Assembly: GCA_021791875.1 (NCBI GenBank)
Contig: JAJYVU010000011.1
Coordinates: 1 to 64,000 of the forward strand
DNA: 64,000 nt
Reading direction: 5' to 3'
DNA from: Acidobacteriota bacterium
GTDB taxonomy: Bacteria; Acidobacteriota; Terriglobia; Terriglobales; Acidobacteriaceae
A program made the position numbers and the translations under genes. A model generated the notes under the pieces. It did no database searches. It was not told the origin of the DNA and saw nothing but the letters and a program-made list of their open reading frames with translations. Numbering within the stretch: the stretch's first letter is position 1; each line of letters starts with the position of its first letter. This document shows, in pieces, positions 1,375 through 52,225 of the stretch.

Positions 1375-2514
1375 TCAGCTGATTTTTAGCAGGCGCATGG
1401 CGGCCTTGCGGAAGGCGACGGTCGCGGCTCCGGGTTTCTTGCCGCTGGAGCCGCTGAAGAGCGATTGCAAGACGCGTACAGGCGCGGGGATGGTGGACTG
1501 GCCGGTGCTTTCGTCCGGCGGGAAAAGCTGGACGAGCGCCTGGCTGGGGTTCTCGCGAAGCTGGTCGACCCAGGCAATGCGGTGCACGCAGAAGACGGTG
1601 CAGTAGGGCGCGCAGGACTTGGGTTTTTTGGCTTCGCGGACGCAGTCCTCAATGGTGTACTGCTCAAGTGGAATGGCGGGATAGCCGCGCTGCGCCATGC
1701 AATAGTGGACGAGACCGAACTCGCAGATGTAGAGATGGCGTCCGCCGGCGGGGCAATGCCAGTCATTTGGCTTGCCGGCGAGCAGATTCTTACGCCATGG
1801 GTTGTGGCGCGCAAAGGAGAAGGCGGATCGCGTCTTGTCTTCCACTTCCTTGAGGACGCGGCGGCTCTCCTCGTCGATGGGCTTGATTTTGCCGGTTTCG
1901 TCGTGGACGATGCCGGCGGTGCTGAGATGGCCGAGCTCCTTGGCGCGCTTCTGGATGGTGAGCACGTCAGAGGGCTTGCTGGTGCCGGCGCCGACGACCG
2001 AGTGAATGTGGACGGGGAACTCGGCGTACTCGGCGAGCCAGCGAAGGCGGAGGTCGAGGATGCGCAGGCTCTTCTTCGAGACGCTGTCGGGCTCGATATT
2101 GTCAATGCTGATCTGCATGCGGTCGAGGCCGGCGCGATTGAGGCTCTTGATGCGATCGATGGAGAGCAGGTAGCCGTTGGTGATCATGACGCAGATCATC
2201 TTGTAGCTGCGAATGCGCGCGATCACTTTTTCCAGTTCGGGGTGCAGGAGGGTTTCGCCGCCGGTGATGGTGATGGTGGTGGTGCCGAGGGCGGCGAGCT
2301 TATCGATGCGGCGGAGGAGATCCTCGATGGGCACGGGCTTGGAGTGGGTGTCGTACTCGCTGCAGTAGGCGCAGTCCAGATTGCATCGGCGGGTGACGAC
2401 GACGTGGGCGAAGACGGGATGGTCCTTCTCGCGCAGGGCCAGGGCGACGAGCCGCGTCTCACGGTAGAGGCGGTTCCAGCGCCGGAGGGTGCGGCGGACG
2501 GTCATCGGCATCAT
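1375..2514 (-). CDS. Radical SAM protein with C-terminal cysteine-rich (SPASM-like) region
   Basis: The protein has 379 residues. A radical SAM core is shown by C44-x3-C48-x2-C51 (CNLDCAYC), which binds the catalytic [4Fe-4S] cluster, and by GGET at 85-88, which contacts S-adenosylmethionine. The C-terminal third has a second cysteine set (HCPAGG, YIC, HYC, DC, SCAPYCTVFC) that could hold one or two auxiliary clusters, as in SPASM/Twitch enzymes. The start ATG has AAGGAG ten bases upstream. It is convergent with the glycosyltransferase and divergent from an FAD oxidoreductase. The substrate is unknown. Peptide maturases and lipid-modifying radical SAM enzymes both have this layout, and no precursor-peptide gene is visible next to it. 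Confidence 0.8.
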   Translation of the reverse strand: MMPMTVRRTLRRWNRLYRETRLVALALREKDHPVFAHVVVTRRCNLDCAYCSEYDTHSKPVPIEDLLRRIDKLAALGTTTITITGGETLLHPELEKVIARIRSYKMICVMITNGYLLSIDRIKSLNRAGLDRMQISIDNIEPDSVSKKSLRILDLRLRWLAEYAEFPVHIHSVVGAGTSKPSDVLTIQKRAKELGHLSTAGIVHDETGKIKPIDEESRRVLKEVEDKTRSAFSFARHNPWRKNLLAGKPNDWHCPAGGRHLYICEFGLVHYCMAQRGYPAIPLEQYTIEDCVREAKKPKSCAPYCTVFCVHRIAWVDQLRENPSQALVQLFPPDESTGQSTIPAPVRVLQSLFSGSSGKKPGAATVAFRKAAMRLLKIS

Positions 2515-51923: not shown

Positions 51924-52008
51924 GCGGCTAGAGCAGTTCTCCTGAGCCTATAGAGTAGTTCAGATCTTTGAAGTGTGGCTGTGTTGCAGATGCGGGCCGC
52001 AGAAACTA

Positions 52009-52039
52009 CGAAGGGGGATGCGGATTGCATCCCCCTTCG
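52009..52039. terminator. Strong hairpin downstream of the Lys/Ala peptide gene
   Basis: CGAAGGGGGATGC-GGATT-GCATCCCCCTTCG is a perfect 13-bp stem 27 bases after the peptide stop codon. The T-tail is short; it could also stop rsmE-region antisense transcription. Confidence 0.65.
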
Positions 52040-52065
52040 TGTTGCCTTTTACTGCTGAAGATCGC

Positions 52066-52134
52066 TTACTTCTTAGCGGTCTTTTTGGCGGCCTTCTTGG
52101 CCGGCGCTTTCTTGGCTGCCTTCTTGGTTGCCAT
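52066..52134 (-). CDS. 22-residue Lys/Ala-rich (histone-H1-like) peptide
   Basis: A 23-codon ORF (ATG at 52132-52134 read on the minus strand) has GGGAGA seven bases before the start. The product is almost only lysine (10) and alanine (8) in AAKK/PAKK units, such as ATKKAAKK and PAKKAAKK, with one proline. Such composition resembles the C-terminal tail of histone H1 and of extended bacterial HU proteins, and would bind nucleic acid. It has a near-consensus promoter, two 5' hairpins and a downstream hairpin, so it looks like a complete, well-expressed gene rather than chance. It is shorter than most gene finders report. The function is inferred only. Confidence 0.65.
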   Translation of the reverse strand: MATKKAAKKAPAKKAAKKTAKK

Positions 52135-52149
52135 TGTCTATTCTCCCTT

Positions 52150-52189
52150 TTTCGACTGACGTCGAAACTGCAGCTTGTCTGCTGCAGTT
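52150..52189 (-). promoter_or_regulatory. Two hairpins in the 5' untranslated region of the peptide gene
   Basis: AACTGCAGC / GCTGCAGTT (52166-52189) would lie at the extreme 5' end of the mRNA, and TTTCGAC / GTCGAAA (52150-52167) directly after it. 5' hairpins often protect mRNAs from decay. Confidence 0.55.
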
Positions 52190-52196
52190 AACCGAA

Positions 52197-52225
52197 TGTA
52201 TAGAGTTGCGCGTGCGCGGTGTCAA
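52197..52225 (-). promoter_or_regulatory. Near-consensus sigma-70 promoter of the peptide gene
   Basis: On the minus strand TTGACA (52225-52220) and TATACA (52202-52197) are 17 bp apart. A-rich and T-rich tracts upstream (52226-52275) resemble an UP element. Expected transcription start near 52190. Confidence 0.75.

Follow-up and report, generated by a model that had tools for sequence, protein, structure and literature searches.

Does a 22-codon reading frame made up almost entirely of lysine and alanine codons, preceded by a strong-looking promoter and followed by a stable hairpin, represent a peptide gene, an RNA gene, or both? This frame lies within a 64,000-nucleotide stretch of an Acidobacteriota contig (JAJYVU010000011.1, positions 1 to 64,000; hereafter the window), where it had been picked out from the sequence as a complete mini-gene too short for most gene callers. 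Comparison with its relatives makes it moderately probable that the locus encodes an RNA of ~180 nt, transcribed independently from a single-copy gene, that would be functional at both levels, as a peptide and as an RNA.

Architecture of the transcription unit

All structural claims of the original prediction are correct: the ORF, with 10 Lys and 8 Ala among its 22 residues, the TTGACA-17-TATACA promoter, the two 5' hairpins, the ribosome site, and the downstream hairpin are all found in the window (Table 1). The terminator-like hairpin has 14 bp, or 16 bp when the scan allows G-T pairs, and the predicted fold of the transcript region is far more stable than those of its shuffled versions (z = -8.7). 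The promoter scanner listed no promoter here because it demands T as the last base of the -10 element, which TATACA does not have. With its own promoter and an intrinsic terminator, the unit has the sequence features of an independent short transcript.

Table 1. Features of the mini-gene, with positions counted from the first letter of the window
Feature	Position	Strand	Remarks
-35 element TTGACA	52220-52225	minus	T-rich tract (conserved TTTTT) just 5'
-10 element TATACA	52197-52202	minus	17-nt spacer to the -35 element
5' hairpin AACTGCAGC/GCTGCAGTT, 9 bp	52166-52189	minus	at the predicted transcript start
Second hairpin TTCGAC/GTCGAA, 6 bp	52151-52166	minus	mainly Acidobacteriaceae
Ribosome site AAAAAGGGAGAA	52141-52152	minus	
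GGGAG inside the ribosome site AAAAAGGGAGAA	52143-52147	minus	invariant in alignment A1; also present in non-coding forms
22-codon ORF MATKKAAKKAPAKKAAKKTAKK	52066-52134	minus	homologous intact ORF in relatives
AAAAGGCAACA motif 5' of the terminator	52040-52050	minus	prominent in non-coding forms as well
Terminator-like hairpin ACGAAGGGGGATGC/GCATCCCCCTTCGT, GC-rich, then a short T run	52008-52040	minus	

Relatives were gathered by DNA search, supplemented with rsmE loci taken from named genomes. TTGAC is present 5' of the ORF in 52 of the 53 collected mini-genes, and the spacer between the -35 and -10 elements is 17 nt in 49 of 52 units and 18 nt in three units from a neighbouring family. Across an alignment of 35 sequences (A1), the T-tract (T6-T9), CTTGAC, TATAC, GGGAGAAT, and ATGGCA are invariant. 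The two 5' hairpins together contain 19 double-change cells versus 4.1 in shuffles, and their pairing is destroyed when the partners are slid; in the second hairpin, 95% of cells are paired and double changes occur in three of the five pairs. A strong stem is found 3' of 93 of the 94 coding units, and the arms of the terminator stem show paired variation between species.

A genome-wide promoter pattern (TTTTNCTTGAC-17/19-TATA) was run on four genomes, with the unit's own promoter being the sole match in two of them and one of two promoters in a third; the pattern misses the unit in the window's own genome, where the T-tract is TTTTTCTC. The near-uniqueness of the combined T-tract, -35, and -10 pattern in these four genomes is consistent with an unusually strong promoter, as had been predicted, and the promoter, hairpins, and ribosome site suggest that the product is probably abundant.

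Distribution and genomic context

An identical layout occurs in dozens of Acidobacteriaceae. R1, a covariance model spanning the promoter through the start codon, matches 352 of 398 genomes of this family (236 of the 256 good genomes), representing 76 of 79 genera, nearly always with a single copy per genome. The ORF is intact in 49 of 52 sampled genera, and all 20 new genera picked by the position of the RNA model without knowledge of the ORF contain an intact lysine-rich ORF. Outside the Acidobacteriaceae, genomes of six other families of the order and class, and one genome from outside the class (L264), share the architecture and have their own lysine-rich ORF in the same place (e.g., MKTATKKAAPKKKAAPKKKK and MPTKKAPAKKKPAAKKKK). 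Base pairs were left out of a further model (R2), whose hairpins failed to align, and among 13 fetched R2 matches outside the class, a K/A-rich mini-ORF was found in L264 only.

As judged from these sequences, the recurrence of the unit with an invariant -35 element, -10 core, and ribosome site is far above chance, and its spread across the Acidobacteriaceae supports the claim that a real and complete mini-gene was sitting below gene-calling limits. No credible match to the mini-gene or its peptide was obtained in Pfam, NCBIfam, Rfam, or PDB sequences, none of the Rfam covariance models matched at gathering score, and literature searches returned no description of the mini-gene. A near-universal, single-copy, and probably abundant gene of an important soil family appears to have gone unnoticed, since the ORF is too short for gene callers and a lysine-rich peptide does not survive the trypsin treatment of proteomics.

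The unit usually lies between a gene for a CPBP-type membrane protease and rsmE. Some genomes show no protease gene upstream but still have the unit; in the closest relatives, rsmE is downstream on the same strand, with the terminator in between.

Selection on the peptide

The peptide set comprises 95 distinct genes with ORFs of 12-37 codons, amounting to about 1,900 residues, of which 994 are Lys, 620 Ala, 134 Thr, and 75 Pro. Not one Asp or Glu is present among them, although 994 lysines are available and AAG becomes GAG by a single transition. Among 33 genes of equal length, third codon positions differ at 0.46 per site versus 0.20 and 0.14 for the other two positions, and the same peptide is encoded by several nucleotide versions among relatives, so that the silent changes proposed as a check on the reading frame are present. 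The spacing between the ribosome site and the ATG is also conserved. The lack of acidic residues and the high variability of third positions therefore argue for selection on the peptide, which is near certain to be real on this evidence; such selection points to a translated and functional small ORF. The peptide might compact DNA or bind RNA, as the original prediction suggested.

Two candidate RNA-level features of the coding versions were rejected: a constraint on repeated GGCA within the ORF was dropped, as the enrichment of these repeats is weak, and a translational switch through pairing of GUUGC in the 5' arm with GCAAC at the start codon was discarded, as hairpins of other sequence (e.g., L032) keep the same start when inspected by eye.

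In one subgroup (L017, L022, L167, L328, L331-L334, and L336-L341) the peptides are very short, at 12-19 aa, and have a C-terminal His (e.g., MATKKKAKKKKH), indicating that length is free and that the Lys-rich end is kept. Several loci (L033, L037, L005, and others) have an in-frame upstream ATG within the second hairpin (MSHRKGRI...), which could mislead automatic annotation into calling a longer ORF that includes the ribosome site.

Loss of the reading frame and retention of the RNA

The ORF has been lost and the unit kept in all 19 genomes of group g32, in 27 of 28 genomes of g53, and in four genomes of g57. These non-coding forms have kept the promoter, a 5' hairpin, GGGAG, and the terminator but have neither the ATG nor the frame. 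The Terriglobus albidus sequence (L070) is the same as L186 of g32, and that of Acidicapsa dinghuensis (L064) is the same as L224 of g57; g53 is presumably Granulicella, and g1 is taken here to be Acidobacterium. The genera with ORF-less units are accordingly named Terriglobus, Granulicella, and part of Acidicapsa, with genus names beyond the named records being presumptive. An RsmE tree (FastTree) implies that the ORF was lost twice, once in the common ancestor of g32 and g53 (local support for this clade, 98) and once in g57.

All 27 g53 genomes compared share the 18 nt with which the core begins, GGGAGCGCAGGCAAACGC, and the identical fractions of rsmE codon positions in the same genomes are 0.79/0.87/0.48. 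The stretch that follows, AACCA(A)GGCAAAGC, is nearly invariant and differs in length by one base between species, so that none of the reading frames is preserved; the use of other start codons or frames by the non-coding forms was likewise rejected because no frame survives the 1-nt indels. The GGGAG...GGCAA core of these forms is largely unpaired in folds. A 20-nt antisense search of five Granulicella-group genomes revealed no long antisense targets of the core beyond the gene itself and chance, and a search of the ORF-less genomes with one exact DNA pattern for a replacement mini-gene elsewhere returned only longer K-rich proteins. Five K-rich proteins of 79-130 aa from ORF-less genomes (L290, L291, L294, L295, and L296) share a C-terminal domain (YSPAAGK..VE.EM..MK.G.LKSG..GK.VT..KQAIAIGL..ARK.GKKVP) behind a histone-tail-like N-terminus. 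This domain presumably resembles DUF6496.

The unit is absent upstream of rsmE in at least nine further g57 genomes, and is therefore dispensable and can be lost outright. At two Acidicapsa-like g57 loci (L308 and L309), only a short distance separates the end of the protease gene from rsmE, with the unit cleanly missing. A broken ORF in close relatives, which the original prediction had named as its own refutation, does occur in three genera, but the RNA survives there, and what is retained is therefore not simply a peptide gene.

On comparative sequence evidence, the transcription unit is conserved, selection acts on the peptide, and the RNA is conserved where the peptide is gone. Transcription from the near-consensus promoter would start at the 5' stem-loop and end at the intrinsic-terminator-like hairpin. 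The unit of most lineages carries an ORF of 12-37 codons selected for an acid-free Lys/Ala polycation; in two lineages the ORF was lost and the transcription unit stayed, with the GGGAG...GGCAA core nearly invariant in one of them. The survival of the RNA in three genera without the peptide suggests an RNA with a job of its own, and a function independent of the peptide, making this a dual-function RNA, is likely. The RNA may act in trans, probably through the GGGAG/GGCAA core, and the peptide would be a short, probably disordered polycation binding electrostatically to nucleic acid or ribosomes, with rRNA, mRNA, or DNA as potential polyanion partners. The function of the RNA could instead have arisen only after the ORF was lost, a possibility that is weakened because the loss happened twice. 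More tentatively, the unit may be an ancient core Acidobacteriota RNA that brings along a polycationic peptide of its own, the two perhaps forming an RNA-peptide unit, and that changed from coding to non-coding in two lineages with the RNA function continuing. If true, this would constitute a natural experiment in which the two functions of such an RNA have come apart over an entire branch of the phylum. The paired coding and non-coding lineages offer a direct test of which half works, the peptide or the RNA, and of the way in which a messenger becomes a regulatory RNA.

An unlikely alternative is a gene for a microprotein only, with an H1-tail-like peptide coating DNA or RNA, hairpins that just stabilise and insulate an abundant mRNA, and ORF-less forms that reflect later reuse of the promoter and terminator. 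Peptide-level selection, the presence of an unbroken ORF in almost every genus as well as in further families, and the identity of codon 2 (GCA in 83 of 85), which fits an ordinary initiation-region constraint, agree with such a gene; two separate ORF losses, both keeping the promoter, 5' hairpin, GGGAG, and terminator, and a near-invariant non-coding core in 27 genomes argue against it. A minimal ribosome-associated protein on small-subunit rRNA is improbable. The model here would be bTHX, a very short and very basic small ribosomal protein, which the mini-peptide resembles in these two respects; the tiny, highly conserved, single-copy gene with its strong promoter and the nearby rRNA methyltransferase gene in many genomes would also fit. 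However, the mini-peptide has no sequence match to the bTHX family in Pfam, NCBIfam, or PDB sequences, and its length of 12-37 residues, its lack of fixed sequence positions, and its loss from three genera are unusual for a structural ribosomal protein.

Regulation of rsmE by a leader peptide or attenuator, compatible with the same-strand, downstream rsmE of the closest relatives (terminator between), was rejected on synteny and is highly improbable: the unit is intact where rsmE is convergent on the opposite strand (L009, L012, and L013) or not detected downstream (L015, L017, L020, L022, L023, and L025), and is therefore not an rsmE leader. The fixed, co-directional position upstream of a regulated gene that marks leader peptides is lacking, and rsmE belongs to neither the lysine nor the alanine pathway. 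Equally improbable is a pure non-coding RNA with an accidental ORF, which would account for the RNA kept in three genera without the ORF but not for the codon-position pattern, the absence of acidic residues, the conserved spacing from ribosome site to ATG, or the K-rich ORF that seven other families have in the corresponding position. The antimicrobial-like role offered in the original prediction, or a toxin-like one, is the least credible of all, as the cationic composition of MATKKAAKKAPAKKAAKKTAKK comes without bulky hydrophobic residues, a hydrophobic face (helical hydrophobic moment, 0.10), or an export signal, no antitoxin or immunity gene was seen, and the unit is near-universal and single-copy.

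For a dual-function RNA, the closest functional parallel is SgrS/SgrT of enteric bacteria, which likewise combines its own promoter, an intrinsic terminator, and a small ORF on a regulatory RNA, and is also kept without the ORF in some species (Yersinia; the sgrT start codon is altered in E. coli O157:H7; PMC4021124). The likeness is one of arrangement and not of descent, since the mini-gene belongs to a different phylum and has no sequence relation to SgrS; its product is a 12-37-aa Lys/Ala polycation whereas SgrT is a 43-aa transporter inhibitor, and base pairing and targets have been demonstrated for SgrS (PMC4021124), whereas for the mini-gene RNA both are hypothetical. PMC8672173 describes a Vibrio cholerae RNA, VcdRP, that encodes the 29-aa small protein VcdP and also acts as an RNA with known targets, an arrangement resembling the one proposed here (where the RNA role is inferred) in an unrelated sequence.

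PMC2848022 and PMC9239181 describe the H1-like bacterial proteins Hc2 (Chlamydia) and AlgP (Pseudomonas) as Lys/Ala-rich and basic, with Hc2 ranging from 165-237 aa by repeat number. The mini-peptide resembles these proteins and the Burkholderia H1-like family NF038053 in composition, and Hc2 in its variable length; all three are much longer, and the mini-peptide corresponds to the K/A element alone. The predicted likeness to histone H1 tails thus stands for composition and does not extend beyond it: curated H1-like, Hc1, and AlgP family models gave no match, and NCBIfam scores fell far short of the cut-off (10.2 bits on a 37-aa relative, against 80). The window's own genome contains an H1-like tail protein (L227; contig 47, 84300-85800) of 234 aa, whose N-terminal part is acidic and whose long Lys/Ala/Pro tail is of the mini-peptide type. 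A genome of another family of the class encodes a 57-aa protein of pure Lys/Ala/Thr without the conserved promoter (L014 in G060, 1459-1632, minus strand).
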